In this document: positions 19,829 to 56,450 of the stretch, piece after piece | Layout: every line of letters starts with the position of its first letter | Position numbering within the stretch: the first letter of the stretch is position 1 | Assembly: GCA_030386875.1 (NCBI GenBank) | Contig: CM059563.1 | Location: 16,014,001 to 16,078,000, forward strand | DNA length: 64,000 bases | Direction of reading: 5' to 3' | Origin: Morinoia aosen | Taxonomy: Eukaryota > Arthropoda > Malacostraca > Amphipoda > Talitridae | Program-made: the position numbers and the translations under genes | Notes under the pieces: model-generated | What the model saw: only the letters and a program-made list of their open reading frames with translations | Database searches by the model: none | What the model was told of the DNA's origin: nothing

Positions 19829-20154
19829 TTGAATAGGCTTAATGCGCGACCATCTGTCTCCGTGTAAACAATAATTGATACGAAAAGGTAATTTTGGGGT
19901 TTAGGCTATTTTCGTTGGCTCGCCAGCGAACGTGTCAACTTTTGGGCATCGTTTGAATTTTTTTCACGTTGAAAACTTATAATTTCAATGGAGAATTACG
20001 TTTATGTTAGGTGGGGGTTCAGTAATTAACCAAAGAATAACATGTGTTTATTAAGAACTCATGCATCATAGCGCCAAATACCAGAACAAACTAAGAAAGT
20101 GATGTAACTTGCCATTACACATGCTAAACTTGTTTTAAGCTCCAAATAGAGCAG

Positions 20155-20160
20155 TTTATT
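20155..20160 (-). promoter_or_regulatory. Candidate polyadenylation signal AATAAA
   Basis: TTTATT on plus is AATAAA on minus. It is the first such hexamer downstream of the candidate Gpdh terminal exon (stop at 20,840) and gives a 3' UTR of about 0.7 kb. It fits a minus-strand gene ending near 20,135. Confidence 0.5.
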
Positions 20161-20839: not shown

Positions 20840-20885
20840 CTAATTGCTCTCGCCGATCTTCACATGCTTCAGGTCAAAGTTGCAA
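20840..20885 (-). CDS. Candidate alternative last coding exon of Gpdh
   Basis: On the minus strand, a long pyrimidine tract ending TTCTTCTCTTTTCAG precedes TTGCAACTTTGACC and a GC-richer coding-like stretch that ends with TAG. If the Gpdh donor inside the stop region of exon 9 (after 26,045) is used, the two leftover bases AT join T here. The frame then reads 'ICNFDLKHVKIGESN' then stop, giving a 364-residue isoform. The phase fits exactly, the acceptor is good, and an AATAAA lies 0.7 kb downstream. In Drosophila, Gpdh isoforms that differ only in their last residues are made by alternative 3' exons; that is established. Assigning this exon to Gpdh is inference: it could be the end of an unrecognised minus-strand gene. 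Confidence 0.5.
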
Positions 20886-20899
20886 CTGAAAAGAGAAGA

Positions 20900-23800
20900 A
20901 TTAAGTTAAGAAACACGGTAGTTATTACTGATATAACATCGTTTACGTCATTTAAATATCATAAATTGGCATATTTAAGCCAACTCATTTCATATTTCAA
21001 CTATGAGTCACATTTATCGCAACAAAATTGAAAGTCGTGGAAGAGAAATGACTTTCCACGTGAAACGTACACACTAAGTGCAGGTAAATAGGTAGGTCAT
21101 AAATACGACGATAAGCATGACCAGTATAGTTAAAAAGAGTATGTTCGAACAAGAGGTGCCCATCACACGGTTGTCATGGAAGTGGAGGGAGAAAATTTCT
21201 ATGCAAACTGTGAAAGAAAATTGAGCAAAGGAAATGCATGCGGACGAGTCACCGAACACACTCGCCACCGTTTAACAAATAATACCATCTGCTCTACGTT
21301 AATACAAACTAAAATTACGAAAATCGGTTAATAAAAGTTTATGAAGGTGAATTGCATAGTAACCACTTACCAATCTTCTGTCTTCACTACAGTTTCGACC
21401 TCAAACGTCTTCGGAGCATGAAGAGAAAACAAAGGAATGAATGGATGTAACAGAGGGTGCCATGAGCAACGAGCTTCTCAGACTAAATGCTATTCTTGAC
21501 GGTAACCTACAGATGATGGGTTACGGTTTAGCCACTGCACCAAAGGAGAAGGGGGGGCGGCCTCAATATACATCGTTGCATATGAAAAAACGAAGTTTAC
21601 ACTAATGCATCATACACTACACTTCCATTTCCCCATTACATTTGAAACATTCATCTTCGAGAATAATGAAGGTCTCGCACTTCTCTAGCTTCCGAAATTT
21701 CGATGTCAAAAGTGAAAGCCATTAACTATATATATGCTATCACTATTTGTTGCATATAAAAATTATTTTGATAACTTCCAATATTCAACACAAAGCAATC
21801 ACAAGTCACACACGCGGAGTTTCGAAATCCTCTATTAACATCAACAAAACAATGATGTTTAATTAGCGTTTGACTTGAGTATAAGTCGTAAGCAAAGTGA
21901 TCGCGCAATCGTTTACCCTAGTTAAACGAATAATTTATCGGAAAGCATGAGGCAAAATAGTTAATTAAATTGAAAATGAAATAGCGTGCCTTGACAAGCA
22001 AGCCCAATTTGCAGCCCTCAATATTTTGCTCGCTACTTCAACGACGTCTAAAACAATGAAGTCTGTAAACGTTTGAAAAATGAGAACCATACAATTCCAA
22101 GAAGCAACTATATTGCTAAACTGCACCAGTAAGCATTATTTCTACTTGCAAATTATCTATAAGTTATTGATAATTTACGGAGTTCCTCAACAGAAAAATC
22201 ACTCATGCAATGACCGTGTAAAGCGGCGTAATACTTCTGAGGATCTTCGCCTACATCCAATGCTGACAATTATAGAAGGAACTTGGATCTGTGAGGAAAA
22301 TGAAATTTATCGAACCCTTATCACAGAAGCATACGAACTAGGCACAGTAACTCCTTACTTGCCAACAGATGCAATTACACAAGATGCGTTCAGAATAAAT
22401 TTTATCAAGTAAACAACATTAATGAAGGTTTAGAATCGAAAGTGCGAATGTACAAGACGTTATCTTCGATGTGCGGCCCCTGACAGGAGGGAGCCGATTG
22501 ATTAAAAACGCAAGTAACAAAAAAAATGTCCACAAAGAAAACTACGAGACAACAGATTTTGATCAGGTGTTGAAAAATAAATCGTTTCAATTCATGACCT
22601 GCTGAACTCATTAACGAGCATTCATTGAAGCCAATGGGCAAAAATTTGACATTAACTTTTTCCAATCACTATCAGTCTGGATAATGAACATTAAAATAGA
22701 AAAACAGCCTATCAAAATTTAGGATCAATACGGACTTCCGAACCGAAGGCTTCGTACGAAAAAAAACATTGGTCAAGGAAAGAAATCAGGTTTAGGAATT
22801 TAGACGATTTCAGTCTCTCAACATACAAAACCACAAAACGTAGTGGTGAGATATCGCATACAAACACTATCAAAAGCGTAAATGCTTGAACAGGAAGGTA
22901 AATAGGGCGTTGGATAACGATTTACAGTGATTGGTTTACTATCACAAGGAAAAACGTGAACAAAGAGCAGAAAATCAAAGACAAGCATGAGACAACACTA
23001 AAGTAAGACAAAACAGCGTTTCATGTCAAAATTGAAGCAAGGGATTAAAGGCGCTTAACTAATTTAAATAGAAGGTAAAAGTGAGCGGTAACTAAGACGA
23101 GTGGTTGTAATACAACTGGAATGCGTTGTACCGGGGCTCCAATAGCTGCGCTCCGGGCTGAACTGCTCTCACTTTTAAAATTAACAATCAATGAATAAAT
23201 ATCCCAAACTAAATTTTCGTATTTAGCTAAAAGTGTTAACACTGAAATTAAATCACGCCAATTGCATCTTCAACGAATTGACTGGAAAAACGTTAATCGC
23301 ATCTTGAGTGGAATGAAAGAAAGACCATTAATGAGTTGAATCAGACGAATCGTGTAAATCTCACAGCGTCAATCGGAAGGTAGAAAGCTGATCTCAATTG
23401 AATACGAATAAAATGCGACAACCCATTTAAAGCTTAAAAACAGATATAGTTTTACCGCGTTCCAGCTTGCTCGAGTCTGGAACTAGAAAAAAAATTTTCA
23501 AGGTTAATCTGAATGGAACAAAATATCACAAGTGCGAATACTGAGCATTCGTGAACACTGAAGCCGTGGAGCGGAGTTAGGCAAGCACGTCCTCGATACA
23601 AGGCAACCACAGGCACGAACGATCAGGAGAGTGGAGAAGCAAAAGTAGAAAAGAGAAATGAAAAGACAGACGTACCAGCGAGGCAGTCCAGCCCAAGAGC
23701 GATACGCTCTAAGGAGCAGCCGTGTATTTAAAGCAGTTTGGTATCCTATAGAACAAAGAGAACCAGTGCGTGATTCATCGGATGAAGGAGTTGCACTTTT

Positions 23801-25175
23801 ACTTTTGGCACTGAAAATATTAGAACTTCAGTCCGGGTGTTTCAACATTCTGTACGAAGGAAAGACCTGACTGAAAAAACATCACTTGAATATTATACGC
23901 GAACACAGTTACCTGAACATCGGATCATCCACGAGGAATAATTTTCATGCGTCACAGTTTGTACACATACTTCAGATAGAAAAAAAACGTTAGAGAAAAA
24001 TAATTTCATGGAAGAAATGGAAGAATTTCATGTCCTCACACACGCAGGATATATCGCTTGCAGAGGGTCGATGTCAGACTTCACATTGGTGAATAGAAAA
24101 TATCGTGAAAAACGCACCTAATTCTGCGAGTTTCACTCAATGCAGTCAATATCCGAGCTTATAACAACGATAGCAGTACAAATGGAATCTGTGGAAAATT
24201 AAGGCTCTCGTAGGTTGTTGAGTCCCAGAGAAACAATTACTACAACTCGCCCGCTTCTAGCGTGCGCTTGAATCGCATTGCGACCCCATTATGATAAAAA
24301 AGGTAGTGAAACCCGAAGGAACATTCGCGCGTAAGTGCTTAGAGCTGATCACCGAAAAAACTCATCCACCAGGCTGACAAAAAGTAAGAAATAAAGAATA
24401 ATTTCATGATTTGCCAGACAGTGAAACTAAACCTATAAGGTTGGAAGCTCTTTGGCATGAATGTAAGCATACCATCCCAGACGAAGCTCAGAAATTAAGC
24501 CTAATCGTATCAAAGTGAATGAATGAGTGTCATGGCATACAATAGACATCAAGTGATGCTATCCAAAGCTGACCAGAAAAGACTTCGGAATTTACACTAC
24601 AAAAAGGGATAGAAATTTTCACTGGTAAAATGATGGAGTTGGATTTTTGGCGATAGGCACACTAGTACTTCGAGGGTTTGTTATGAGCTAAATGAGAGTT
24701 CTTAGGAATATGTAACAAAGATCTCTCAGCACATTGTCTCCGTAAAATTTTCTTGGGCTTCTCATAGATAATGCTGCTTTGATAAAAGGCAAAAAGAGAG
24801 TCTTGATGGTGGCCTAAAAAAAGTTATCCTCATCAAGTAACGAAATTGAAATTTTGTAAAGCGACATTGAATATCTATAAAATTTATCATTCTGAAAGCC
24901 AAATACGCCAACGCAAATAAAATAGCGAATATATTTTATCCATCTATCAAACTGTACTTCACCATATTATCCACTTTTGGCAATACCATTACTGTGATTT
25001 TTGGAGCAACCTCTGTTTTCGGCCTCAACTCCATACAATTTTAACACGACTAACTTCCAGGTTTAACTTTCTATTACCAATTCATGCATATTAAGAACGA
25101 TCAAGAAATCAAAAACCATTGACCACTACGTGAAAACATCCAGAAGCACCTAATTACTTGTTACTATACCTGTTA
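20900..25175. other. Candidate 3' intron of Gpdh, or intergenic
   Basis: No gene recognised on either strand and CpG-normal. One weak 27-bp minus-strand exon candidate lies at 23,456-23,482 (see findings). Confidence 0.4.
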
Positions 25176-25474
25176 AGATTATAAATTGGCTTGCACCTCC
25201 CTAACCACAACAAAGGTGTTCTAAAGAAAGGAAGGATAAAGGCACCATGTAGGATGGAGTCATGGGAACAAGGAAACTATGCAAGAGGTGTGTTCCCACA
25301 CAAGATCCCATGCGCATTGAAACAGAACGAAAAAAAACCGCTGTAACAAAGCAAAAGTTCTTTTTTCAAGAAAAGGAAGGCCTATATTACTCTCAGCTCG
25401 GGACCTCACATCTTACCCTTGGGAGCGCTCATTCCCGTAGATATAATACCAGTATCTGCCTGATGGGGACTTCG
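25176..25474 (-). repeat. 350-bp dispersed repeat, copy 10
   Basis: First copy in the opposite orientation: read on minus it begins CCCCATCAGGCAGATACTGG and ends AGGGAGGTGCAAGCC. The middle is diverged and shortened. Confidence 0.7.
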
Positions 25475-26040
25475 TCAGATTTCGAGGTGATTAAAGCGGA
25501 GTCAAAATATATGGCGGCTCGAAACTTGAAGTAAATATTCGGAAACCCATACATTTAAACTGCCCTATTGAATTTACTTTGCTCTGCGGTGTGGCCTGCG
25601 GGAAAAAATTCACACATTTGGATGGATCCACGTAGCATAATGAAAGCATGGAATATATGGCTGCCCCAGCTAACAACAACCCAGAAATTTAAAAACACCA
25701 AAGAGGAATAATATTATAGTAAAAGGCAAAAACGGAGAGGGTGACAGCTCCCCAATAGGCTGTAGAACAACTCTGTAAAAACAAATTAAAACTCCCACTC
25801 TTAGGATAAATCGTAACCCTGCAATTCTTCGAAATCCACAAATTCATAGTACAAACAATAACACAAACGAGTTATAGAGTTATAGCGCAGTCCTCAATCA
25901 AATCCAAACTGAATTTTCATTCCCGGAAACGTGTCATCAAAATAAAACCTGTGAGGGATGGTCGCACTTTCAATTATTTTTCAAAATTCAATAGAACAAC
26001 AAAAGCAAAATAAATCTACAAAAGAGGGAATGCCTCAAAC

Positions 26041-26137
26041 TTACATGTGCTCAGGGTGGTTGCGTATGCACTCAATCATTTGGTCGGGGGTGAGCTCTCC
26101 TTTGCAGATCCGGTCGATGGCAGTGAACAGCGGGAAC
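26041..26137 (-). CDS. Gpdh: Gpdh coding exon 9 (C terminus)
   Basis: After AATATTCAG the exon encodes '[20 protein letters not shown]' then '[11 protein letters not shown]' and TAA. The last bases read CAC ATG TAA GT, so GTAAGT (26,044-26,039) is a consensus donor that removes both the final Met codon and the stop. Unspliced, the protein ends at the conserved 'NHPEHM' as in vertebrate GPD1. Spliced, it ends in phase 2 at 26,045 and needs a downstream exon (candidate at 20,885). No AATAAA or ATTAAA was found on minus within about 1 kb below the stop. Confidence 0.95.
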
Positions 26138-29100
26138 CTGAATATTACGACACAAAGTTTTAGGGGACAGTGTAGGCTCTAAGAACCGAGATTACACGCA
26201 AATTCTTTTCTAACGATTGAGCTGCATCTCTCGGGTATCCCGGCAGTGCCACCCGGAGTGAGAACTCAGCTACAATTTCCCACTCTACCTACACTGTAGA
26301 TGTCGGAAAAAGGTACCAGCTTGTCTAGGGCTAGGTGTAACCGCCATTGCGTCCACATGTTAGTTGTAAGGCATTTGAAAAACCAATGTACAAGATGATA
26401 TGTATCAGGCTAGATTAGAGTTAAACATCCTTTTTTGTGAGCAAAGTGCGCGGGTATTGTTGCTTTACGTCCGAGAAGTAATAGTTATCGAGAGTTCAAA
26501 GTCTAGTCACCCCCAGAAACAGTTAATGAATCTGGTACGGGAAGCTACTGCTTCCACAAGGTTTTTCAAATGAAATAAATGTACGAGGAGTTCGCGTGAC
26601 TCGAACTACGGGCCAAGAAATAACCTCGCCGACACGCTATCGATCACCCTAAAAGATGATCGAAGCCCAACGAAAGCAATGCTTGGCACAGTGAAAGCAG
26701 GCGCGCACTGTCCCGACAGATATATTTTATTCCCTTATGTATCGAGAGTTCAAAGTCTAGTCACCCCCAGAAACAGTTAATGAATCTGGTACGGGAAGCT
26801 ACTGCTTCCATAAGGTTTTTCAAATGAAATAAATTCATGATAAATAATGGGCTATAACCTGCCACTTAGAAGTGAACTTAAAAAAAACAAAACGAAAGCG
26901 AGGAAAATAGGGCATCATACGTCGTGGAAACGCAACGAGAATTATCAAATGATTTATTGAATACGTATACGCGTGAAAAAGTAATCAGCCGTAAAATACG
27001 AGGAGGAAATACCTTTCTTCCATGTCCTTGGACTTGAGCATGAAGTTAACCTCCGCAGCAGTGTGTGGTCCCTGGAGTTTCTGGCCGTTGAGCATTTCCT
27101 TTTCAAGCTCTTCAATTGACTGGAAAAAATAAATAGGGTAAGACTAAGCAAAAATTAGATCCATTTTGTACATCCTCGTGTCGGGTTAATGGAATCTGAC
27201 CAAGCAGTCAATCTGTTTTATGAAGATACAAAGAAGACGATTAGAACGAGCAATTTGATCAACAATCATTTGCTAAAAGCATAAGTACGAATATCGATAG
27301 GCGAAGCGACTATGCTCTGACTATAAAATGCAACTTTTCAACATCTCAAAATGAATAGAAGGAAAATAAATATAGATTAACTACACGTGTAACAAAAACG
27401 TTAAGTGATTCTTACATCATTATAAGTTTTAAATTAATTTATCTCTAGGGAAACGTAATCTACATAAAAACAGAATTATCAAGGAGGGTAAAAACATCTT
27501 TCAAGAAGTCATCTTTGTTTAAATATAAAGCTTTCGAGTACTACTACACTCATCATCAGTATCTGAAACGGAAAAGAAAAATAAACTTTACATCAGGAAT
27601 TATACGAGCACACATGTTAGTGAACAAAACTTAATTAAGAACTTGAAGAGGAACAGATGAATCAGTTGCGTTTAGTGTTGGTTTAATCTGATGAATAAGG
27701 ATGCTTTCTAATAATCTTATATCTTGTCTACTACTGTGCCCTATAATTTCAAAGTTATTCTGATTGATTGGGTGACCAGCTAAATGTGCATGATCTCTGA
27801 TACTACTATGTAATGTTTGGTTGGTAGCTCTACCAGTACGTACGGAAATGCCCTTATGCTCTGCTATGCGCGTTACTAAGTGGCGAGTGGTCTCTCCACA
27901 ATATGTAGCATTACACTGGCTACATGTATATTTATAAACGACGCAACTTTGTAGAGACTTAGGCATCCTATCAGTAAACCGGAAGAAACTACCAACACTG
28001 AAGTCATTGCGAAAAATAATTCTTGACTCTGGCTAATATTTTCCTTTCGCACTACGAACAGCTGTGGTTGAATGATTGTCCTGATATTTTTAAACCAGTA
28101 TATTATAGGAGGTATGTCGACGACACTTTTCTTTTGTTTCGTGATGCCAGCCATATTACTTTGTTTCTAAACTACTTGAACAGCAAACATCCGTCTATAA
28201 AGTTTACCCATGAAAAAGAAACGGGAAATAAGCTCAACTTCTTGGATGTCTGCATTGAAAAGTGTGAAAATTCCTTCAAAACAAGTGTTTATCACAAATT
28301 AACCAATACTGGTCTGGGAATGAAGTTTATTAGTGCAATAAATGTTAACTTTAAGTACAACCTTGTTTCTGGTCTTGTAAATAGAGCTTTTAAAATCTGT
28401 TCAACGTGTGACGCTTTTTCAGCCCGACTTGAGTATTTGCGTTCTTATTTTTGCCGTAACTGTTTTCCGCTCTCTGTCGTAGAAAAAATTTTCCGTGCAA
28501 CCATTGAATGTAACCGCAAGGATAAGATGCCAAATTATGATGTGCAGAAAATTTTTTTATATATATCCGTTAACTATATGTCAAATGCATTAAATCACTA
28601 TGTTAGGGAGGAATTAATATTACTACTGTCCAAATATTACCCACAGCTCAATCTAAGAATTATTTTTCGCAATGGCTTCAGTGTTGGTAGTTTCTTCCGG
28701 TTTACTGATAGGATGCCTAAGTCTCTACAAAGTTGCGTCGTTTATAAATATACATGTAGCCAGTGTAATGCTACATATTGTGGAGAGACCACTCGCCACT
28801 TAGTAACGCGCATAGCAGAGCATAAGGGCATTTCCGTACGTACTGGTAGAGCTACCAACCAAACATTACATAGTAGTATCAGAGATCATGCACATTTAGC
28901 TGGTCACCCAATCAATCAGAATAACTTTGAAATTATAGGGCACAGTAGTAGACAAGATATAAGATTATTAGAAAGCATCCTTATTCATCAGATTAAACCA
29001 ACACTAAACGCAACTGATTCATCTGTTCCTCTTCAAGTTCTTAATTAAGTTTTGTTTACTAATATGTGTGCTCTTATAATTCCTGATGTAAAGTTTATTT

Positions 29101-32100
29101 TTCTTTTCCGTTTCAGATACTGATGATGAGTGTAGTAGTACTCGAAAGCTTTATTTTTAAACAAAGATGACTTCTTGAAAGATGTTTTTACCCTCCTTGA
29201 TAATTCTGTTTTAAATTAACAAAATCTCCCTAGGGTGTCAGTTCCGATAGAACAGGATACATTGCAAATTATTAGTTAGGTTAGGCCTCCTTTAAGAGAG
29301 GTTAGGCCTCCTTTAAGCGAGGTTAGGCCTCCTTTTTTAAGAGAGAAAGAATGAAAGCACAATTTATTAGTTTGGAATTAAAGGAACAAGGAATTTATGC
29401 ACCAGGTATGTCCCCATACCATACACAGAGAAACAGCAAGGTTGAAAGAAGATTAAACAAGACAGAAATTGAAAATGAAAGCAATACGTGATGATTAACA
29501 TAACAAACAACATTTATTTCAATAAAAAAGAAGGCCTACCTAACTCTCAGCTCGGGACCTCACATTTTCCCCCTGAAAGTGACAATTCCCATAGAAGCAG
29601 TTGTATTGGGGACTGAGAAAACGTACCAAAAAAAATTTGCTTCGTAGCAGAACAAAAATCCTTTTCTATTACAACCAAAGGAAGGCCTACTTAACTTTCA
29701 GAACGGGACCTCACAGCTTCCTTCTGGGAGCACTTATTCCCATGGAAAAAATTATTATATCCCTCAGAGGGGATATCATAGGATAAACAAACCTAACTAG
29801 CATAAACCCATTACTTATCGTGTGCTCCTCGAGGGGATAGACTATTGCAATTAGCCTGTTTAAAGTAGCTTAAGATACGTGGAAAAACTTCAAGGAGCGC
29901 GCTGAGGTTCAACTCAAAATCTTATCTAAAATCAAAGAGTTAAAAACGATAAAGTTTATTTTACTTTAGCCCTTTAAACCGAACCGAAAATTTATGTAAT
30001 TAGGAGATGTGCTTGTGCGCTCAAAATAAAGTGAAAATCTAAACGATTCAATAGGCAAATGACTCAGTATGCCAAAGAAGAACACTGAGCATTGTAACAG
30101 TACACGTCCGCAAACATCATCGCATTTAACTTTAGCTTGTACGCTCAAAAAGACACCAAAGAATTCGTAAGCGATTTGACAGGGAAATGAATCTGCTAGC
30201 CAAATGAGAACACTGAAACAGCAGCACAAATGCAATTCATCGCATGGAACGGGACGACAGCAGCCCTTCCGTATTGCTGCTGCTGCTGCATCACGCCCTA
30301 ATGCTGTGTAACCAGAGCTATGCACACAATATTGCAAAAGCAACCTTGCCAGTGGTGACGAAGGCCTCGGCCACTTTTCTGTTTCTGCCGCCGTAGCAGG
30401 TCGTGATGAGGTCGGCTATGCCGCAGCTCTCGAAAAATGTGCCCAGTTGAGATCCTGCATAAAACACCTGGAAATTTGAAAAAAATATGGTGAAACCAGT
30501 GTCACATACACATTGAGGAAAAGTTGTATGGTTTAAATTAAACTTTGAAGATTTTGATGTGGTACTGCGTGGAATGATGTAGGGCAAGTTCATTGCAAAA
30601 GTGCATAAATAATAGGAACGCAGCTAGCCGTTAAATTTTCCCTATACCTGTATCAAATGAATCATCGAGCAACAAGAAAAGGAGAGAGTAAAATTTCTAA
30701 AATAAAAAATACATAGGATACCAGAAGTAAGCAGCCAGAAATACTCGTACACTTGACCCAAACATTGAAAATGCACAGGATATAACTAAAATTTCGTCAT
30801 AAAAATTAACAATAAATTGTACTGCCTAATGCTGCTGAATCTGAAAAAAGTGTGGACGACATACCAAGTATCGAAAAACCCAAGTAAGACTACACTAATT
30901 TTTTCATCCAAACTCATAGCTACACGCTTCTCAGTTAAATGACTAACATATTATATTAGCTTATAAAAACTTCTAAAAATTATTATCACCGCATTATAAC
31001 TGCTCCTTGCTTTAAAAGTTACCCGGAACCCGGAAATAGATATTTAAGAGCCCTAAACTTAATAGAAACGAACATAAACGAACCTAAAGACTGAATAAAT
31101 AACATAAGAAAGTGCTAGTAGTTGGACCGATTGCTAACGTATGGAAGCGACTAAAATTTCGCGCTAGCAAATAATCTTATTATAGCATCATGAATTCATG
31201 ATCCTAGCCTAACCCCTGCAGTCCCAACGTAAATGATTTCAGCAGTGATGTATAGCATTGTTAGATTTAATACGATTTCTGGGCCTTTCATCAGGTCGAG
31301 ACTATGGTTGGTTGATTAGTTATCTAGTAAGCAACGATAACATCACAAGCAAGAGCCGAATTACCTCACAGAATTTAATGATCTCCATCATGCCGAGTCT
31401 GATGATGGCTGCCTTGGTGTTGTCTCCGTAGCCCAGTCCGTCTACGAAGCCTGCGCCCGTAGCTACGATGTTCTGCGGAGTAAAATTCATGGTTGCAACA
31501 CGGGAAAGTTATGAAGTTCACAATATCAATTATTTTAGGAACATAAACACAAAGAATGGCGGGTAAAAAATAAAGAATTTATGATAGTTGTGAAGAAACT
31601 TCGAATGTAGGCATCTCACCCAGTTTTTCACACGGGGTGTGAATGCAACGCAATTGTAAGCGACAGCATGTAATTCTAAATTACTTATTCATTTACAACA
31701 CGAATTTGTGAGCTTCATTTTATGCTTGAATGATTAGCTCATCTAAAAAACACCCTATGTGTGAGACTAGCTTGAGAGACCACTTCTTTTGATGATGTTA
31801 TCGGTAAAGTACGCAGTTGTTAAGATGACTTTTTTCAACATTTGCAATTGAATGTTTTCGAAAATAACATGTTTACTACATAAGGCATTTTTATTTATCA
31901 AAACTAACGTCATCTGAATGTTCATTCATTGATTTCTTTTTTAAATCTAGCAATAAAAAGCGCCAACGAACAAAATGAATACGATTGTAAGTCTGTGTGC
32001 GTGAGTCAATCTTTTAAGAAACGCAAAATGTCGGCATACGGGCCAGAACTGTCACAAACGAAGGAAAGGACAAGGATTCGGCTAATTTAAATACGGACAT

Positions 32101-35100
32101 TTAAAGCCGTAATGACCAGCATTAACACAAAGAAAAGGAAGCAAACGAGTTCAGCAAAGTGAAATGCAGACATACAAAGAGTAATTGACCAGCATGAACA
32201 AAAAAGAATGGAACCACAACAGTCCAGCGTAGTACAACGCGGACATATGAAGAGTATTGGCCATCATGAACACCAAAGACTGGTAGCACACGTTACCTTG
32301 AGCGCGCCGCACACCTCCACCGCCTCCACATCGTCGACGACCACAACTCTGAAGTAGTGTGTCTGGAAGAGCTCCCGCAGGTCTCTAGCGAGCGTCCGAT
32401 CTCTGCACCCTGCACATGCGCGAGTATGGAGAAGCACACGTCTACTTTCGCGTACGCGCAAAAATGACTTATGATTATCAGATTTACACCAATGCTCTAG
32501 CAGTTACATTGTAAATCTACTGTGTGACAATCCTGTCACAAAGGCTCTAACCCGCAAAAGGATCACAAAAGCAACAGTGAACAGCTGTAATGAAATCTAC
32601 AGCACACATGATGGCACAATACACGAATATTTCTGACAATCTTGTCCCGAAGACTGTAACACATAAAAGAGCTACAAAGGCATCAGTGTCCAGCAGGAGT
32701 GAAATCTACAGCACAAGATGGGTCTTGATGACATAATACAGGACTACTCCTGACAGTCTTACCAAGGAAGCTGTAACACATAAGCAAGTTAACAGTGTTC
32801 AGCAGTAATGAAATCTACAGCGCATGACCATACACGAATATTTCTGATAACCATACCACGGAGGCTGTAACACATAACAAAGGCACCAGTTTTCAGCAGC
32901 AATGAAGCACACGCAAAGCACGGCAGGGCAAACTGACCAATGGTCGTCTCGCAGAACTTCTCGTCAGCGACTTCCTTGGCGAGGTTGGCCCCCATCAGGA
33001 CGGACATGGGGATGTTGAGCAGGTTGCCGATCATGCGCGAGATGAGCTCTATGCCGCCCCCCTCTGCGTGGTCAAAGCCCTGGTGAACCAGAAGATATAT
33101 GTTTAGGCAAGAATAGCAAACGGTATTAATAAGAAAGCGAACCGACATTTCACGAATAATTAAAACTACCGTAAAAGAATGCATATGCGAGAAATGCAAA
33201 CGGCAGTAAAAGAATATAAGTAAAACGGTATTTTAAAAAAACAACCCCAAAATAAACACAAATGAACACTAATGGTGCATTATAACAGGCGAGTACAACA
33301 GATTAAAACAACTACAAGGATACTAAGAGAGCAGTATACCGGATTTAGGTCGAGTGGGAGTTCATCCTCGACGTCCTGCAAAGTACGTATTTTATCACGG
33401 ACTGCGTTACTAAACACAATAACCTCAAGTAAAAAGAAAATCATTACACCTAGTGACAGATAATCATATCATAATCAATACCTTCTCAGAATCTAACACG
33501 TTCACAAGCAAAAACGAATGATAAACTCTGGCTTTATACTTAACAATGAACAACGCTATGAGGTAAAATAATACATTAATACAGTAAGTCGACAATTAAT
33601 TACCAATAGAAGAGGTTAAGAAACAAGTCACTAATATGGAGCAAATATTAAAGTCAGCGATATGAGGCATTGTATGTGAAGACAGATTGGATTATACGTT
33701 AGTTTAAGCCTCCCTAACCGCTACTAAAAAAGCGTTCAGAAGAGAGGAAGGAGGAAGGCACCATTTAGTATGGAGATAAGGTAACGCGGAATCTATGCAG
33801 AAGGGGCATAGAAACAGTCAGTTGAGAAAGAAGTTAATGAAACTAAATATAAGTTGAAGAAGAAAGTAGTAGCTGCTGAAAAACAGGATAGCCGTGAACC
33901 GAAACAAGGTGGCCCTTAACATAGCAAAAAACATTTTAGTTGAACAAAAAGAAGGCCTACCTAACCCTCAGCTTAGGCCCTCACATTTTCCCCATGGGAG
34001 TGCTAATTCCCATAAATACAATAGTTGTATCCCCTTGTGGGGCGCAGTGAATTGAAATAATGCAGTAATCGAGTAAGTAGACAATAAATTACCAACAGAA
34101 TAGCTTATGACACGAGTCACTAACATGGAGCAAATATTAAAGTTAGCGATATGAGGCCCTGTATGTGGAGACATGTAGCAACGAAACAAGTAAAGACTTG
34201 AAACAAAGGGCACATCACACAAAGCACCTTGATGAGCGACACGCCCACTGCTGTGGACTTGAGCTTGCCCACCAGCGGGCGGCAGATAGGTTTGATGAAC
34301 TGGTGGGGAAGCACGAACAGCAGGATGTCGGCGTTGGCGGCCGCCTCCACCACATCCGGCAGTGCCACCTGAAACACATTTTATGCGTTACATTCATTCA
34401 TTAAACACTCTTATAAACATATTCATCAAACTTTACCACTGCATTACTTTCAGTGAACATTACCTCTGTTTGCAGCGAACGTTACCATAGCACCACTCGT
34501 AGCGAACATTACCCTGTTTGCAGCGAATTTTACCTCTGCACCACTTGCAGCGAACGTTACCATAGCACCACAAATCATTAAGCAAGTCATTTGTGTGCAG
34601 CACACATGACTCGCAAATCCATGCATTATTCTACACGGAGAAAATGAATGCGCTGAGTGAGGAAAATAATGCCGACGAACACCACATGCTCCGACACACT
34701 CACCGCAGGTTAAGCGAAAAGAAACATTGGACCGATAAAGAGGCATGTCCGCTCAACTACAAGCCTCTCAGGCCTGCTTTGAACATACGAGTACAATGCC
34801 AGCCTCCCGTTAGGACAGCGAAGAATATCGCAGCGAGAAAGACTGCGTTCCGTTCAAACGGAACGATACAAGGACATGTAGTTAGATTAGATTATATGTT
34901 AGTTTAAGCCTCCCTAACCGCTACAAAAAACTCCCAAAACGTTGAAAAAATAGCGTATCGAAGAGAGAAAAGAAGAAGGCACCATTTAGTATGGAGATAA
35001 GGAAACGCGGAATCTATGCAGAAGGGGCATAGAAACATTGAGTTGAGAAAGAAGTTCATGAAAGAAGATAAAAGTTGAAGAAGAAAGTAATAGCAAGGAC

Positions 35101-35733
35101 ATGTAGTACGCTATCAGTTGTACAAAGTTATGGTTAAATAAAACGCGCGACAACGATGATGTTTTACGACATATATATCCATAAATATAGATGCATTAGA
35201 AATGATCTTGATGTAAATTGATTAGCATTACGATAAGAATGGGATCGTTCCATTCCGCATCAATGATTTCTTCCAGGTATCGGTCACCAGCGATATTTCA
35301 GTCAAATAATCTATGTAACGGCTCAGTGGAGGTAGATGAGACTCATTTCAAGACGAGACTCCATATGCATGGTGCTTCTGATGGATATTTGAGATACCAA
35401 TTACTGCCCAAGAGCATTTTGGGCTCAATCGGCATCCTGAGCTTATAGCTCTTCCGTCATATAAGGCATTTCAATACCAGTAAAAACTAGGGTTACTTTC
35501 AATTTATAAACACAAACTTGAAACCCTCTATTATTCAACTAACATTTTCTAATCAGACATAAGAAGCTTGCATATTTAAAGCATCATATTCATCTAACAT
35601 TATTACTTCATTCATTGAACACTATCTGTGCTTCGCTATATTCTCAGTGTATTATTCAAGATTAGATTATAAGTTAGTTTAAGCCTCCCTAACCGCTGCA
35701 AAAATAGAGCGTATCGAAGAGAGGAAGGAGGAA

Positions 35734-35781
<48 letters not shown>

Positions 35782-47700: not shown

Positions 47701-50700
47701 TTTTCCTTCTTTCGAGCCAGAAATCCAAAATTATATTTGAACAAATAATCCAAACTTGAAAATTTTGGCCAAGAAAAAAGCAAGTCTGACAACCATACCA
47801 CTAGCATGAAAGCAACAATTGCTTAAGAAGAATCCAAAAAATAGAATACTAGTGAAGAAATCATCTAGAAAATATTTACTTACAACATTTTCTGGAAGCT
47901 TGTGGCCAGGCAGGTACTTCACATTTTCATGCTCTGTGTTGATAATTTCTGTGAGCTTGCGACCATTCACCTCTTCTTCATATACATACATCCGCACTTC
48001 ATTTGTAAAGTTTTCTAGTTGTTTCACATTGCCTCCTACGATTTTTGCAATGGCAGAACCCCTGTTTGGAAAAAATTATCAATAAACACACTTATGGAAA
48101 GCAACATAGCATTAGTAATAATTTAGCAAATTAATAATCAGCTATGCACTTGAAGCTTCAGTACATTAACTAATGAAGGTGAAACTCTTGCAAAAACTAG
48201 CTGCAGATCAAACATTTAAATTCATATGGGTAATCTATCAAAGGTTTACTGATTTTTTTTCTAATATCTTGTACACCCTGGAAATTGTATTAATATGGGT
48301 TTTGATAGAACCAAAACCATTTTAACTCATTAGAAGTTGAAGCCCACACAGTACAAGCAAACTTCTCATCACAGAATTTGACTCCCATAGATCAGCAACA
48401 GTAGGTATCTTAAGGAGAGCGTCCCCTATACGGACTTTTTTCTTTATTATTGAATCTAGAACAATGAAATTTGGTAAACTGATAGGAAATTGAATTTGGA
48501 ATCGTTTTTGCTTAGCGCAAAAGTTCAATTTTCTTGAAAAGAAAATGGGAAATCGAAGAAAACGAAATGTGAGGGGGGTTCAAAAATCTTCTCCTCCTAC
48601 GGTTTTTGAGCTACAGTGATGATTTTAGTATCATTGTATGCGAGAAGACACGGGCTTTAATGGAAGCTAATATTCATTCCAAAATTATTTATTGTTCATG
48701 AGTTATGACGTCATAAAGCGGCACATTTTCGAAACAGGATTTTTTTTCCAATTTTTACACTTTTTCATATTGAAAATGAAAAATTGAGGAAAAAAATTTT
48801 AGCTTCCATAAAAGCCCGTGTCTTTCCGCATCCAATGATGCCAAAATCATCACTGTAGCTCAAAAACCGTACGAGAAGCATTTTGAAACCCCAAAAACCA
48901 TTGTTTACATTATAAGCAAAACAAAGAAACATAAACAATTCAAATGAAAAATTTTGTAAAATTTTTGGTTCAAGTTAGACCCCTGAAATCATTAAAGAGT
49001 AATCCAGAGACATAGGAGATGACATAGCAACTTCGTGCTGTGAAGAAAGTGCCATGGGGGAAGTGTAACATGATAAAATACCACTTCCCCCTCCCCTCCC
49101 CCCCATTCTTTAAACCCCCGTAGCGGGCGAACGAATGAATGTACGAGTCTCATTTTTTGACAGGATGTACCTGACCTCTTACACTTCTTATAGCAGCAAA
49201 AATCCCAGTTTCTCAAGAAATCTGAAAAACATGGATTCATAAGGGGGGTGCTGTCCTTAACCTATTGAGAAGTTTTGAGCAAGTGTACTGACCACATATC
49301 ATACATACTGACTGCATTAATAAAACTATATGGAATGCCCAGTATTAAAAATGATAGAAATTTGTTATACAGTTGGTAACCAGAAATAAAATTATTGTAC
49401 ACAAGCATTAAGAGAGCAGCTATTTGAGTTTGAAGTAAAAACAAGCTTGAAATTTTTAGAGGTTTATGACTTGTTGAAATATATTTTAGTGCAAAAATGA
49501 AGCTCAGAATCATTTTATATTCCAAATTACATTTTGCTAAAATATTTAAAACATTCAAATTAAAATTCTAAATAGGAAGCCAATATTTCCTTACAAGCAC
49601 ATAAATAATTTCAGAACTTAGTGGAGATACTAATTCTCAGCAGGACTAATATTCTATCATTAAATACCCTGAAGGCTAATTAATTAAACTGCTGACATAT
49701 AACTCAATATATAAACAGTTCTCCAAAATCATTACTACAAATTCCTAAATGTTAGATCCTTGGAAACTCTACATTACTTTGCTCTTGCTTAAGATACTTG
49801 CTCTAGATTAAGATACTTTTGTTAAGAAAATGATAGTGCATAAGTTGCATTACTTGTATCTACATACATCTGTAAAATTTTCCATTGAAAACAAATATAA
49901 GTAAGCATCATCCCTTCTAGATTAAGATAATCCATCAACAATAAAATGAATGATTAATTCAAGTAAAAATTCTATTAATCAAACAATCACTTTTTCAATT
50001 CAAGAATTTCTTCGCTAAATTTTCAAAATGGCTGTTGATAATACTGTAACTGATATATAATACTGGAACATTGATATTAACAGAATTTGTATCCTTTTCT
50101 CAATAAACCAATATCCACTTATATCAGTGTAAAATTTTTATCAAAACATTTCTAGATATGACTTATCAAGACAAGCCAGTTCTAAATTCTAAATAATAGA
50201 GTTTATATAGAACACAAAATAAAAAAGAAATTCATTTCAGAAAAGCATCTATTTTAAACCTAGATTGCACAAAATATAAAACAGATTCATTTTTTAAATA
50301 TTTCATTTTCAAAAAATCATTCTTTATTAGCTAACAGATATGCTATAAAATATGAAATAAATTACTGAATTAGTATAAGACTACATATGAACTTACCAAA
50401 ATATGATAGTATTCCTAGATAAAATGTTTACTAATTTTATATCTCAAACAGATTTGATCAAAGGACTCCAATATAATAAAACCAGTAAAATCCATCCGAA
50501 TAATTACAATTGATGTAAAAATGTTTTTCAGTTTCTAAACATTGAGAATTTTCTAAAATCAAAATAAAGAAATTATATAAAGAATTGAATAAATGAAAAA
50601 CAATATAAACTAGCCTAGTACTACAACGAGTAAAAGTTTTATACCAAGACAGCTCAAAATATAACTATTTTCTCTACTTTATTGGTTACTAATGATTCTC

Positions 50701-51097
50701 TAAAATCTCAATTGACCTATGAAAATATTTTGTGTCATTAATAAGAGTTCAAACAACTTTCATGACTGGAATAGCCTACATGAAGAGTAAACATGATGAA
50801 CTATAACTGTTATTTAATTTTGTACATTATTAACGGATATGAAGGAAGAAAGCTAAAGCACAAAAAAGCTTCACACACAGTGACTACAGCTTCTCTCAGG
50901 CAGAAAAAATGATTTCAAAATCTAAGAAGCATTATAAGTACGCTCACAATGTGTTTTTTCCATCATAAAACTTCTTTAAAAGCTCGTGAGTCTTATATAA
51001 ACTTTGAAAATTCTTGAATTGACTAAGTTCTACGCAACATCGTAATCACTTACCAATTTCCTGAACCAACGATGCAAATTTGTTTTGGTGAGCTCAT
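26041..51097 (-). CDS. Gpdh: Glycerol-3-phosphate dehydrogenase [NAD+], cytosolic; complete gene, nine coding exons
   Basis: The minus-strand exons are 51,097-51,054, 48,061-47,884, 34,368-34,228, 33,079-32,938, 32,409-32,297, 31,472-31,365, 30,467-30,345, 27,119-27,013 and 26,137-26,041. They total 1,053 nt, giving 350 residues plus stop. All splice phases agree, and the length equals that of the animal family (about 349-353). The enzyme interconverts dihydroxyacetone phosphate and glycerol-3-phosphate with NADH in the cytosol, feeding the glycerophosphate shuttle of flight muscle and lipid synthesis. Visible family marks are the NAD-binding 'VGSGNWGSAIAKI' (from about residue 10), K121 at the end of 'GVSLIK', catalytic-type K206 in 'VCGALK', and R270-N271 in 'CYGGRNRK'. 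No key residue is missing. The start ATG is the only one giving the family N terminus ('[13 protein letters not shown]'). Exons 1-2 are AT-rich in third positions, while exons 3-9 are GC-rich. The stop overlaps a splice donor (see exon 9). Confidence 0.97.
26298..26415 (-). repeat. Dispersed repeat D1, copy 1
   Basis: It matches 42,435-42,560 in inverted orientation (shared GCCTGATACA...ATC, TTTTCAAATGCCTTA, ACTAAC and the GGTACC block). In Gpdh intron 8; class unknown. Confidence 0.6.
26486..26580. repeat. 95-bp direct repeat, left copy
   Basis: Nearly identical (one clear difference, CACAAGG versus CATAAGG) to 26,740-26,834. The two copies bracket the SINE-like segment at 26,581-26,739. 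Confidence 0.9.
26581..26739 (-). mobile_element. tRNA-like SINE segment between 95-bp direct repeats
   Basis: On minus, an A-box-like TAGCGTGTCGG and a B-box-like AGTTCGAGTCA are about 40 bp apart, near the spacing in tRNA genes. The segment does not fold as an intact tRNA that I can recognise, so I call it a tRNA-derived SINE rather than a tRNA gene. Confidence 0.5.
26740..26834. repeat. 95-bp direct repeat, right copy
   Basis: Second copy of the unit at 26,486-26,580; see that entry and the findings. Confidence 0.9.
27013..27119 (-). CDS. Gpdh: Gpdh coding exon 8
   Basis: Phase 0 start after TTTTTTCCAG, encoding '[20 protein letters not shown]' then '[15 protein letters not shown]' plus two bases of Arg; donor GTATTT. 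It matches the helix-rich C-terminal substrate domain ('NGQKLQGP' is a family signature). Confidence 0.96.
27427..27450. repeat. Left target duplication of the Penelope-like element
   Basis: TTTTAAATTAA...TCTCTAGGG resembles 29,209-29,235 (TTTTAAATTAAC...TCCCTAGGG) on the far side of the element, with small indels. Confidence 0.5.
27468..28025 (-). mobile_element. Penelope-like element, inverted 3' arm
   Basis: This is the reverse complement of 28,665-29,208: the C-terminal GIY-YIG endonuclease coding part plus the 3' tail (CTCGAAAGCTTTATTT, CATCATCAGTATCTG). It is joined head to head with the longer plus-strand copy that follows. Such inverted partial copies are a known feature of Penelope-like insertions. 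The reading frame 27,966-27,631 is still open and nearly identical to its partner. Confidence 0.9.
28026..29048 (+). CDS. Penelope-type reverse transcriptase (C-terminal half) with GIY-YIG endonuclease
   Basis: An open frame of about 340 codons with no in-frame ATG at the left, because the 5' part is missing. The RT catalytic motif YVDD lies at about residues 31-34, followed by '[14 protein letters not shown]' (typical of the family's RT palm/thumb). A Cys-containing GIY-YIG nuclease runs from about residue 236 ('[20 protein letters not shown]' ... 'RIAEHK'), with the acidic '[15 protein letters not shown]' near the end. The full enzyme would be about twice as long, so this copy cannot make a working RT. 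It is transcribed, if at all, antisense to Gpdh. Confidence 0.9.
   Translation, partial: TLANIFLSHYEQLWLNDCPDIFKPVYYRRYVDDTFLLFRDASHITLFLNYLNSKHPSIKFTHEKETGNKLNFLDVCIEKCENSFKTSVYHKLTNTGLGMKFISAINVNFKYNLVSGLVNRAFKICSTCDAFSARLEYLRSYFCRNCFPLSVVEKIFRATIECNRKDKMPNYDVQKIFLYISVNYMSNALNHYVREELILLLSKYYPQLNLRIIFRNGFSVGSFFRFTDRMPKSLQSCVVYKYTCSQCNATYCGETTRHLVTRIAEHKGISVRTGRATNQTLHSSIRDHAHLAGHPINQNNFEIIGHSSRQDIRLLESILIHQIKPTLNATDSSVPLQVLN
28026..29208 (+). mobile_element. Penelope-like element, 5'-truncated main copy
   Basis: Begins inside the reverse transcriptase at '[14 protein letters not shown]' (family context 'GSPLGPTLANIF'), then '[12 protein letters not shown]', and ends after the GIY-YIG domain and a 3' tail. 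With the inverted arm, the insertion spans about 27,468-29,208 in Gpdh intron 7. Near-identity of the two arms says the insertion is young. Confidence 0.92.
29209..29235. repeat. Right target duplication of the Penelope-like element
   Basis: Partner of 27,427-27,450; the two match over most of about 25 bp. Confidence 0.5.
29268..29625 (-). repeat. 350-bp dispersed repeat, copy 11a, with small tandem repeat at its edge
   Basis: Family body in minus orientation. At 29,275-29,338 the AGGTTAGGCCTCCTTTAAG edge is repeated three times. Confidence 0.7.
29641..29792 (-). repeat. 350-bp dispersed repeat, copy 11b, fragment
   Basis: The conserved 150 bp nearest the ATACAAC end, from AACAAAAATCC to CCCTCAGAGGGGAT. 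Confidence 0.7.
30345..30467 (-). CDS. Gpdh: Gpdh coding exon 7
   Basis: Phase 0 at both ends, encoding '[20 protein letters not shown]' then '[20 protein letters not shown]' and K. It contains the substrate-phosphate-binding R270-N271 pair and D261. The donor is GTTGCT, weaker than the others in the gene. Confidence 0.97.
30468..31364 (-). other. Gpdh intron 6
   Basis: No repeat or gene recognised; CpG-normal. Confidence 0.8.
31365..31472 (-). CDS. Gpdh: Gpdh coding exon 6
   Basis: Encodes '[20 protein letters not shown]' then '[16 protein letters not shown]' (residues 207-242), containing the 'GDNTKAA' substrate loop; phase 0 at both ends, acceptor CCGCAG, donor GTAATT. Confidence 0.97.
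32060..32282. repeat. Tandem repeat, about 75-bp unit, 3 copies, in Gpdh intron 5
   Basis: The unit contains GCRGACATAYAAAGAGTAAT-type sequence followed by GACCAGCATGAACA and a run of AAAG. The units are diverged by 20-30%. Confidence 0.65.
32297..32409 (-). CDS. Gpdh: Gpdh coding exon 5
   Basis: Joins exon 4 to read '[20 protein letters not shown]' then '[19 protein letters not shown]', ending with the catalytic-type K206. Of two possible AGs 6 nt apart, the upstream one (exon starting 32,409) is required by frame and by the family's 'TIGC' motif. GC-rich. Confidence 0.96.
32524..32910. repeat. Tandem repeat, about 105-115-bp unit, 3.5 copies, in Gpdh intron 4
   Basis: The unit has the landmarks GTAACACATAA, CAGTGTTCAGCAG, AATGAAATCTACAGC and AATACACGAATATTTCTGA. 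It ends just before the exon 4 donor and so fills nearly the whole intron. Confidence 0.8.
32938..33079 (-). CDS. Gpdh: Gpdh coding exon 4
   Basis: Encodes '[20 protein letters not shown]' then '[20 protein letters not shown]' and 'KFCETTIG'. '[20 protein letters not shown]' is a near-invariant GPDH stretch. Acceptor CACCAG, donor GTCAGT in phase 1. Confidence 0.97.
33550..33688. repeat. About 130-bp direct repeat, left copy, flanking the 350-bp repeat
   Basis: Roughly 80% like 34,048-34,182 (shared ATGGAGCAAATATTAAAG and GCGATATGAGGC). The two lie directly on either side of dispersed-repeat copy 12. Confidence 0.75.
33684..34047 (-). repeat. 350-bp dispersed repeat, copy 12, full length
   Basis: All landmarks present, with an ATTGGATTATACGTTAG tail at the left. 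In Gpdh intron 3, 180 bp from exon 3. Confidence 0.85.
34048..34182. repeat. About 130-bp direct repeat, right copy
   Basis: Partner of 33,550-33,688; ends about 45 bp from the exon 3 donor. Confidence 0.75.
34228..34368 (-). CDS. Gpdh: Gpdh coding exon 3
   Basis: Encodes '[20 protein letters not shown]' then '[20 protein letters not shown]' and 'VGVSLIK'. It completes the N-terminal Rossmann domain and ends with K121. Very GC-rich third positions, in contrast to exon 2. Phase 0 at both ends; acceptor TTTCAG, donor GTGCTT. Confidence 0.97.
34453..34570. repeat. Short tandem repeat, GCAGCGAACGTTACC-type units
   Basis: About five 18-30 bp units built on GCAGCGAAC(G/A)TTACC with interspersed TAGCACCAC or TCTG spacers. 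It lies close to the exon 3 acceptor. Confidence 0.75.
34881..35097 (-). repeat. 350-bp dispersed repeat, copy 13, partial
   Basis: The end nearest TTAGGGAGGC plus the middle; preceded by GTTAGATTAGATTATATG, the family's AATCT-type tail. Confidence 0.75.
35660..35735 (-). repeat. 350-bp dispersed repeat, copy 14, fragment
   Basis: Only the tail end (AGATTAGATTATAAGTTAG...) and first 60 bp; runs into a (TTA)n microsatellite at 35,736-35,781. Confidence 0.75.
35736..35781. repeat. (TTA)n microsatellite, about 15 units
   Basis: An uninterrupted TTA/ATT run between repeat copies 14 and 15. Confidence 0.95.
35782..36132 (-). repeat. 350-bp dispersed repeat, copy 15, full length (best reference copy)
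   Basis: A clean copy from AAGTTTTAGCCTCCC to GTATCCCCCTGAGGGG; good for a family consensus. Confidence 0.85.
36396..36510. mobile_element. MITE family M2, copy 2
   Basis: CCAATCTAACTTTTTCG to CGGCAAAAAAGTTAGACTGG, almost one large palindrome around GCGATTAAATCGC. Same family as 11,307-11,410. Confidence 0.8.
38119..38250 (+). mobile_element. tRNA-derived SINE head
   Basis: An A-box-like TGACCTAGTGG and a B-box-like GGTTCGAAACG are about 42 bp apart, with tRNA-like arms between. Followed by unrelated AT-rich sequence. Not an intact tRNA gene. Confidence 0.55.
38270..38341 (-). repeat. 350-bp dispersed repeat, copy 16a, fragment
   Basis: Same short tail-end piece as copy 14 (AGATTATAAGTTAG...GCGTATCGAAGA), interrupted by copy 16b inserted at its end. 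Confidence 0.75.
38342..38702 (-). repeat. 350-bp dispersed repeat, copy 16b, full length
   Basis: Complete, with a TTAGATTAGATTAG tail directly abutting copy 16a. Confidence 0.85.
41337..41495. repeat. Tandem duplication, 85-bp period, 1.9 copies
   Basis: CATAGCCGATTGTTTAGTAC begins at 41,343 and again at 41,428, followed in both by CAGCAAT-CTCGTGATACCG. Only a few differences, so young. Confidence 0.9.
42387..42408. repeat. (AAAT)n microsatellite
   Basis: About five AAAT units. Confidence 0.9.
42435..42560 (+). repeat. Dispersed repeat D1, copy 2
   Basis: Matches 26,298-26,415 in opposite orientation; includes GGTCAAGACCGGTACC. Confidence 0.6.
42871..43206 (-). repeat. 350-bp dispersed repeat, copy 17, nearly full, with end duplicated
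   Basis: The CCAATTCCCATAGATACAAC end segment occurs twice (43,145-43,177 and 43,187-43,206). Confidence 0.8.
44183..44396. mobile_element. TTAA-flanked MITE family T1, copy 2, uninterrupted
   Basis: CACTTTGACCGCAACGTGCG at the left; the right end GTTGTGGTCAAAGTG equivalent is followed by TTAA (44,397-44,400). The left site is TGAA, a degraded TTAA. The ends are inverted repeats (CACTTTGACC / GGTCAAAGTG). Confidence 0.8.
47093..47435 (-). repeat. 350-bp dispersed repeat, copy 18
   Basis: A full copy whose CpG sites are mostly lost (for example CGGGACC to GAGACCC), in line with its CpG-poor surroundings. Confidence 0.8.
47884..48061 (-). CDS. Gpdh: Gpdh coding exon 2
   Basis: Completes W15, then '[20 protein letters not shown]', '[20 protein letters not shown]', '[19 protein letters not shown]' (residues 16-74). 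'[21 protein letters not shown]' is a near-invariant GPDH stretch. AT-rich codons. Acceptor CCAAACAG, donor GTAAGT in phase 0. Confidence 0.97.
48414..49256. mobile_element. TTAA-flanked MITE family T2, copy 2, with internal hairpin
   Basis: TTAA at 48,410-48,413 and 49,257-49,260; the ends are GGAGAGCGTCCCC and the complement of GGGGGGTGCTGTCC. Inside, 48,598-48,680 and 48,800-48,880 form a large inverted repeat (GAGCTACAGTGATGATTTT and complement). It sits in Gpdh intron 1 and is CpG-richer than the sequence around it. Confidence 0.8.
49261..51053 (-). other. Gpdh intron 1, unique part
   Basis: Very AT-rich with almost no CpG (I count four in 49,261-50,940) and no recognised element. Confidence 0.8.
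51054..51097 (-). CDS. Gpdh: Gpdh coding exon 1 (start)
   Basis: ATG at 51,097-51,095, then '[14 protein letters not shown]' and two bases of W15, before GTAAGT. It carries the start of the dinucleotide-binding GxGNWG motif, which is split by intron 1. Just upstream, TTCTAG could be either 5' UTR or a splice acceptor for a non-coding first exon. Confidence 0.96.
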
Positions 51098-51452
51098 GAT
51101 TCTAGAATTTGTAGCGGCGATAAAACTTGAGTGTATAGAGCCAGGTATAGCAGGGCAGCTCACGGCACAACCAATCCTCCCAACGGTAGAAGTGACTTGA
51201 ACTTGAACTTGAACTTGAAATTGAGGGCCGACAGCGTCGGGGCCTTTGTAACGGCCTACAATTCCCTCCACAGTTATCACACAAAGAGTTCAGCGCCTGG
51301 TACCAGACTTGTCCACTAAACTACTCAGGATTTACCAATCCTTGTCACAAGCTGCCATTGGATGGCGTCACTGGGATAGCCAGTGCGTCAAAACACCATC
51401 CCCAGGCATATTGGGTCATTACTGACCATTCTACCTGACTGGCACATTCCAG

Positions 51453-56009: not shown

Positions 56010-56450
56010 CCTCAAACACAGACTTCTCTCTCAGTACAAATTTCACAGGCAGAAGAAGTCTTCACTCACCAAATCTACTGAAAATCAAGTTATCAAACCA
56101 AAAGAAACAAAAACGTTTCCTACTACTCTCACAGTCACTCACTACAGTGTCACACACTATACTCTTTATATGCAAAGAAAGCTTACCAGTCAAAACACCT
56201 CAGTCAAAAATTGCAAGTCACCACACCAAAGTCCAATGCTCAGTCTCAACTCTCACGCAGCAAAAAAACTACTCTCACGAGCACTCCATACAAAGTCACA
56301 CACTGTACTCACGTGAATATACAAACTATACCAGTTTTTCAGCAACTTCACTTTAATTCACCACAATTTTCGTCACAATTTGCCAAACACTAGTAAACAC
56401 GAGAGCCTTACCTGTGTTCACACCGTAACGTAACACCACCCACGACACTG
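56010..56450 (-). other. LINE 5' region
   Basis: Non-coding, GT-rich on minus, with GTGTGTGACT-type repeats. The 5' boundary is placed near the CpG-rich GTGTTACGTTACGGTGTG and is uncertain by about 100 bp. Confidence 0.5.

Follow-up and report, generated by a model that had tools for sequence, protein, structure and literature searches.

In Drosophila, the glycerol-3-phosphate dehydrogenase (GPDH) isozymes GPDH-1, GPDH-2 and GPDH-3 differ at the C terminus, and the tripeptide tail QNL of the fly enzyme stands directly after HPEHM. We analysed a Gpdh gene on the minus strand of a 64,000-nucleotide stretch of DNA (hereafter the window; C8:16014001-16078000, contig CM059563.1, from a genome assembly of 29 contigs totalling 1.99 Gb), the 3' end of which may offer a comparable choice. 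The relevant passage of PMC4708006 traces the fly isozymes to one gene and one primary transcript, from which alternative splicing makes three products. For Drosophila Gpdh1, a passage of the review PMC7477296 mentions, after Wojtas et al. 1997, a variant type 1 peroxisomal targeting signal (PTS1) at the C terminus and calls its peroxisomal trafficking unconfirmed. Extracts of other papers list GPDH among the genes differentially spliced in chilled honeybees (PMC11677483) and indicate that particular GPDH splice forms appear required for flight (PMC5632299); the GPDH passages of PMC9339270, PMC4192631 and PMC11545850 hold nothing bearing on the tail. Beyond GPDH, PTS1 isoforms made by alternative 3' splicing are described for fungal glycolytic enzymes and Drosophila Nurf-38 in part of PMC4207609, a paper in which a search for GPDH terms found none. 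In composite terminal exons and intronic polyadenylation, an unrecognised donor lets the exon run into the intron and reach an early stop; of the composite events in human cells, 80% are accompanied by AAUAAA or AUUAAA (both from an extract of PMC5928244).

The sequence of this locus suggests a C-terminal splice switch in Gpdh, with two and probably three ends, operating through a donor that overlaps the stop codon. We slightly favour this reading over its negation, and we lean to the same small degree towards the claim that more than one C-terminal end is made. The gene itself, the overlap of stop and donor, the strength and phase of a tail exon, and the presence and phase of an SKL-encoding candidate can be read from the letters. 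If the donor were left unused, translation would halt at once and yield a vertebrate-like HPEHM end (350 residues). Joined to position 20885, exon 9 would give an HPEHI-CNFDLKHVKIGESN end (364 residues). Joined to a microexon at 21408 (or 21399), it would give HPEHI-RLRSKL (or HPEHM-SKL), a PTS1, and the tail exon would then serve as 3' untranslated region. The 14-residue CNFDLKHVKIGESN tail is the firm alternative end; RLRSKL as a further one is, in our estimate, an even bet. The RLRSKL end has the form of a canonical PTS1 from which import through Pex5 is predicted, and the SKL form would direct a share of the enzyme to peroxisomes. The features concerned, in a gene that recurs in a second copy on the same contig, are the following.

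26045..26137, minus strand: Gpdh exon 9, ending inside the codon AT/G; its frame end aligns to the end of human GPD1
26039..26044, minus strand: donor GTAAGT overlapping the Met-stop (ATG at 26046-26044, TAA at 26043-26041)
21371..21408, minus strand: candidate 38-nucleotide microexon, in phase with exon 9 (I-RLRSKL-stop, stop at 21389-21387; donor GTAAGT at 21370-21365); found at one site in each gene copy
20840..20885, minus strand: tail exon, coding part, I-CNFDLKHVKIGESN-stop (TAG at 20842-20840); found only in the two gene copies
20155..20160, minus strand: AATAAA, likely polyadenylation signal 1, about 0.68 kb past the tail stop
20047..20052, minus strand: AATAAA, likely polyadenylation signal 2, about 0.79 kb past the tail stop

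The likeness to Drosophila Gpdh1 would be that of one gene whose 3' ends are varied by splicing (a passage of PMC4708006) and of a PTS1-like terminus in one form (a passage of PMC7477296), and three possible ends here would parallel the three fly isozymes. The gene anatomy offers candidate alternative 3' exons in phase, such as an isozyme system of this type would have, and their use is predicted. The differences lie in the tails, which are CNFDLKHVKIGESN and RLRSKL here, in the apparently crustacean host, and in the forms, which here are predicted ones; among the acceptors scanned from 26030 to 20000, no in-phase tail ended in a fly-like QNL. With the fungal glycolytic enzymes and Nurf-38, the locus would share the acquisition of a C-terminal PTS1 by a housekeeping enzyme through alternative 3' splice choice (part of PMC4207609), but here it is the alternative donor that overlaps the stop codon, and peroxisomal import is a prediction.

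Exon 9 closes with CAC AT followed by GTAAGT, and ATG TAA GT serves both as Met-stop and as donor. This donor agrees with the CAG/GTAAGT consensus at 8 of 9 bases, the best of the gene's nine donors, the other eight reaching 5 to 7. The original prediction had placed a donor over the stop of an exon ending in CAC ATG TAA GT, and its coordinates and phases were borne out. Compared with vertebrate GPD1 (1x0v, 6e8y), the product aligns over its full length and the final HPEHM is identical to that of the unspliced form; those chains lack a tail, and the alternative ends are without counterpart in the aligned structures. Since human GPD1 ends on the same Met, HPEHM-stop at the end of exon 9 is probably the ancestral C terminus, now part of a splice donor, and for the same reason a protein with the short end would be functional. 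Ten splicing-factor motif patterns sought in intron 9 showed no clear excess.

The tail exon starts at 20885 after TTCTTCTCTTTTCAG, behind a strong pyrimidine tract, and joins exon 9 in phase. All AG sites from 26020 to 15000 were scored on acceptor quality, with weights that are not the output of a tool, and on the in-phase fit of its frame to the codon usage of this gene. The tail exon, with a score of 12.9, ranked first among 621 in-phase acceptor candidates (runner-up 9.7), and its acceptor came second among nine scored. Simulated introns of the same dinucleotide content matched the tail score in 0 of 200 cases and, in a larger run, in 3 of 1500. Over the whole window and both strands, only 6 of 7266 in-phase AG sites reached it, the other five being frames over Gpdh exons or antisense to them. 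The predicted phase-matched exon at 20885, with its second C terminus, is well supported by sequence, and we regard splicing of the tail exon as likely.

Two other tails in intron 9 were set aside as chance, given how often simulated introns matched them: ILEQAGTR-stop at 23476 (score 9.7, matched in 18 of 1500) and MPHRRAK-stop at 25595 (score 7.1, matched in 165 of 1500). The intron also holds a 107-residue open frame on the minus strand (window 23504-23827) without Pfam match. At 5159 nucleotides, intron 9 is long enough for a gene, and the 20885 exon might belong to another gene on the same strand. No positive support for such a gene was found; the exon is in phase with exon 9, and none of 5 nearby open frames compared with Pfam, out of 20 listed of at least 70 residues (the other 15 were not compared), gave a match. 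We hold this explanation to be very improbable.

The distribution of polyadenylation signals adds another aspect. On the sense strand of intron 9, AATAAA was absent where 2.2 were expected (P 0.11, weak taken alone), and AATAAA and ATTAAA together occurred once against 5.2 expected (P 0.03); the sole ATTAAA lies at 21863, 4.2 kb past the exon 9 stop. The same intron of the second gene copy has no AATAAA and one ATTAAA. Behind the tail, AATAAA was found at 20160 and 20052, in agreement with the signal that had been announced 0.7 kb past the tail stop. The accompanying claim that no hexamer lies within 1 kb of the exon 9 stop is correct as regards AATAAA and ATTAAA, but this interval does contain weaker variants (AATGAA at 25921, AGTAAA at 25578, AATATA at 25388 and AATAGA at 25075). 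No AAUAAA or AUUAAA follows the skipped donor within 4 kb, though a weaker signal may lie nearer; this intron thereby differs from composite terminal exon systems, having no AATAAA at all and its one ATTAAA far from the stop. Because AATAAA is missing from intron 9, a transcript that ignores the donor would need a weaker internal signal or a 3' untranslated region of about 6 kb.

Constitutive splicing is a rival explanation. All mRNA would then join exon 9 to 20885, the 14 residues would be a lineage-specific extension, the stop in the donor would never be used, and ATG TAA would be a by-product of a GTAAGT donor placed after AT. The strongest donor of the gene and the second-best acceptor of nine agree with this, as do an intron without AATAAA and two AATAAA behind the tail. 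However, the short end would work, as human GPD1 ends at exactly this Met, and fly Gpdh produces C-terminal isozymes by splicing (a passage of PMC4708006). We find constitutive splicing, and with it the by-product origin of ATG TAA, rather unlikely.

The third possible end depends on the candidate microexon. In intron 9, the strict motif [SAC][KRH][LM] ends a single frame, common to the acceptors 21408 and 21399, the latter being a second AG in the microexon that gives M-SKL-stop. As expected of a PTS1 isoform, a terminus of this motif lies in a candidate alternative in-phase exon with both acceptor and donor, a match found post hoc. Acceptor 21408 scores 1.1, the eight acceptors of the gene ranging from -0.36 to 5.36, and acceptor 21399 scores -5.8. 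Acceptor 21408 is preceded by 63 AG-free bases (gaps of at least 60 between AGs make up 13 of 241 in the intron), and the GTAAGT at 21370 is the only GTRAGT of intron 9 besides that of exon 9. Among 3000 simulated introns, 0.27% contained SKL together with an acceptor no worse than the weakest of the gene and, at most 300 nucleotides away, a GTRAGT; SKL with the acceptor alone was found in 1.5%, and SKL behind any AG in 4.3%. A survey of 209264 bases of real sequence (the window and 11 hemocyanin and arginine kinase loci, both strands, three phases) returned 72 strict PTS1 tails; a good acceptor accompanied 12 of them, and 6 had a donor as well. Among these six, 21408 is the only SKL and the only tail from the window, the remaining five being located in three hemocyanin loci. 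The usual rule for the triggering of decay sets a distance of 50 nucleotides; the microexon stop, 16 nucleotides from the next junction, would be too close to trigger it. For the use of the SKL microexon, we see the chances as evenly divided.

If the SKL exon were coincidental, a two-state switch would remain, with retention or a composite terminal exon (HPEHM-stop) on one side and splicing to 20885 on the other. The statistics of the tail exon (rank 1 of 621, 3 of 1500 simulations, the window-wide scan) are all in favour of such a switch, and ATTAAA at 21863 and the weaker hexamers could terminate the short form. The 80% of human composite terminal exons with AAUAAA or AUUAAA (extract of PMC5928244) stand against it, since here one ATTAAA is found, 4.2 kb on, and full retention implies a 3' untranslated region of about 6 kb. 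We judge this two-state version unlikely. The original prediction had opposed retention to splicing at a single site, which is plausible as one possibility but probably incomplete, in view of the RLRSKL candidate inside the intron and of a retained form without AATAAA.

Several points weigh against a switch with two or three ends. The tail exon and the SKL exon are both predictions from DNA, and an intron 9 without AATAAA makes the short form harder to produce. The SKL acceptor at 21408 scores below seven of the eight acceptors of the gene, a donor context like its own is no rarity (the intron holds 2 GTRAGT where 2.5 are expected), and the codons of the SKL exon fit the gene's usage badly (score -9.2). 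Of the 3000 simulated introns, 1.4% contained a strict PTS1 tail of whatever sequence with both acceptor and donor, and 30% contained one if every AG was allowed as acceptor. The SKL search was moreover post hoc, the acceptor and donor criteria having been set once the match was known. The two gene copies are identical around the tail exon (201 of 201 bases) and the SKL exon (141 of 141), but since the copies hardly differ anywhere in that stretch, this identity is uninformative about selection. Finally, the CNFDLKHVKIGESN tail pattern gave 0 matches in viral_contigs, and the C-terminal half of Gpdh gave 32 pattern matches in viral_contigs and 154 in genome_contigs, or 600 and 44 with a human segment added, 0 being confirmed in any of these searches. 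No arthropod Gpdh was among the matches from these two collections.

The enzyme may even use neither exon and end in HPEHM as in humans, the donor, the tail and SKL being coincidences of an AT-rich 3' region. Both exons are predictions, and each feature singly has a modest chance probability, which suits this explanation. Against it stand the 3 of 1500 simulations for the tail, combined with a perfect GTAAGT, and the lack of any AATAAA for 5.2 kb past the stop; we consider it quite improbable, and return to a stop-overlapping donor with alternative ends as the preferred reading.

The gene concerned is complete and encodes a eukaryotic cytosolic NAD-dependent glycerol-3-phosphate dehydrogenase (Gpdh/GPD1) in nine coding exons, which lie between 51097 and 26045. 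Its 350-residue product scores 494 bits with TIGR03376, the model of the NAD-dependent family (cut-off 285.5), and contains both Pfam domains; the pieces from exon 8 and exon 9 alone gave no match in the Pfam search. An alignment of the spliced 364-residue form with human GPD1 spans residues 4-350 and reaches the end of the human chain (E about 1e-151). The exons upstream of exon 9 are the following.

51054..51097, minus strand: Gpdh coding exon 1, ATG at 51097
47884..48061, minus strand: Gpdh exon 2, holding the Pfam NAD_Gly3P_dh_N match
34228..34368, minus strand: Gpdh exon 3
32938..33079, minus strand: Gpdh exon 4
32297..32409, minus strand: Gpdh exon 5
31365..31472, minus strand: Gpdh exon 6
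30345..30467, minus strand: Gpdh exon 7
27013..27119, minus strand: Gpdh exon 8

Gpdh recurs 1.39 Mb away on the same contig and in the same orientation (window 1-64000 versus C8:14622556-14680450). Most of the window recurs with mosaic identity, from 100% over 7.6 kb and 99.97% over 34525-51196 (5 mismatches in 16672 bases) to about 3% difference over 23793-27391. Between 15000 and 27437 the copies show 110 grouped differences, 5 below 23793 and 105 between 23793 and 27391. Two sites differ in a comparison that covered exons 2 to 9 and, of the 46 tail coding bases, 45, exon 1 being outside it; both changes, CTG/TTG and GAA/GAG, are synonymous when read by eye. The second copy looks like haplotypes unpurged from the assembly or a recent (segmental) duplication, and no other intron-containing Gpdh was among the best candidates. 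Two parts of the window are absent from the second copy: 27437-29208, with a 342-residue open frame that by eye resembles a Penelope-like reverse transcriptase fragment, and 51196-56444 (5.2 kb), with minus-strand open frames of 1138 and 386 residues that by eye resemble a non-LTR (long terminal repeat) retrotransposon. The latter stretch starts 99 bases upstream of the Gpdh ATG. The arginine kinase genes on C17 likewise form two pairs, 2.65 Mb apart. C27 carries, between 55 and 72 Mb, four intron-free gpsA-type frames (329-363 residues) and seven uninterrupted COX1 matches (E below 1e-100), and looks like unplaced sequence with bacterial genomes of symbiont or contaminant origin.

The genome also allowed us to characterise the host. 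One of its hemocyanins reaches 713-725 bits with 1hc1 and 6l8s and 326 with the chain that ranks next, 3ixv; insect storage proteins come to about 250. For one of its arginine kinases, 5zhq, 8yx0, 4bg4 and 4bhl, all single-domain chains, give 640-648 bits, 4am1 gives 629 and the remaining single-domain chains give 584 or less, with summed scores of 710 and 643 for the two-domain proteins 4rf6 and 4wo8. We take 1hc1, 6l8s, 5zhq, 8yx0, 4bg4 and their relatives to be crustacean chains. The mitochondrial genome (C28:1-20000) has a strongly rearranged order, with ND2-ND3-COI and CytB before ND6, and TTAGG repeats are abundant in the genome. Hemocyanin, arginine kinase and mitochondrial gene order led us to reject an insect origin; the host seems to belong to the malacostracan crustaceans, perhaps to the peracarids. 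The insect family of odorant receptors gave 0 matches in the genome, a search without positive control, so that absence is not demonstrated. The original prediction was framed in terms of related insects and fly muscle; the same three lines of evidence point to a crustacean, to which the flight-muscle frame for the tail is therefore not transferable. Among the literature matches listed, none dealt with GPDH splice forms of crustaceans; for a swimming crab, such forms of the cytosolic enzyme have reportedly been described.

As separate observations, the mitochondrial genome contains a tandem array with units of about 209 and 161 bp near the rRNA side, and further COX1 copies lie on C29 and, carrying stops, on C26, C22 and C11. 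Hemocyanin genes cluster at C23:9.01-9.06 Mb and C13:64.80-64.90 Mb, with 5 and 10 of the 17 matches.

More broadly, arthropod Gpdh might carry an old three-way C-terminal switch built on a stop-swallowing donor, with a peroxisomal RLRSKL branch. The PTS1-like terminus of the fly would then be kin to a genuine peroxisomal isoform, and no mere oddity of flight muscle. We advance this generalisation tentatively and hold it to be possible but doubtful. If a switch does operate here, a single splice decision at the stop codon would decide where an enzyme central to redox balance and lipid precursors acts. Such a switch would exist outside flying insects, and flight muscle alone could therefore not account for it. 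The arrival of arthropod GPDH in peroxisomes, which a passage of PMC7477296 calls unconfirmed for Drosophila, would become testable.

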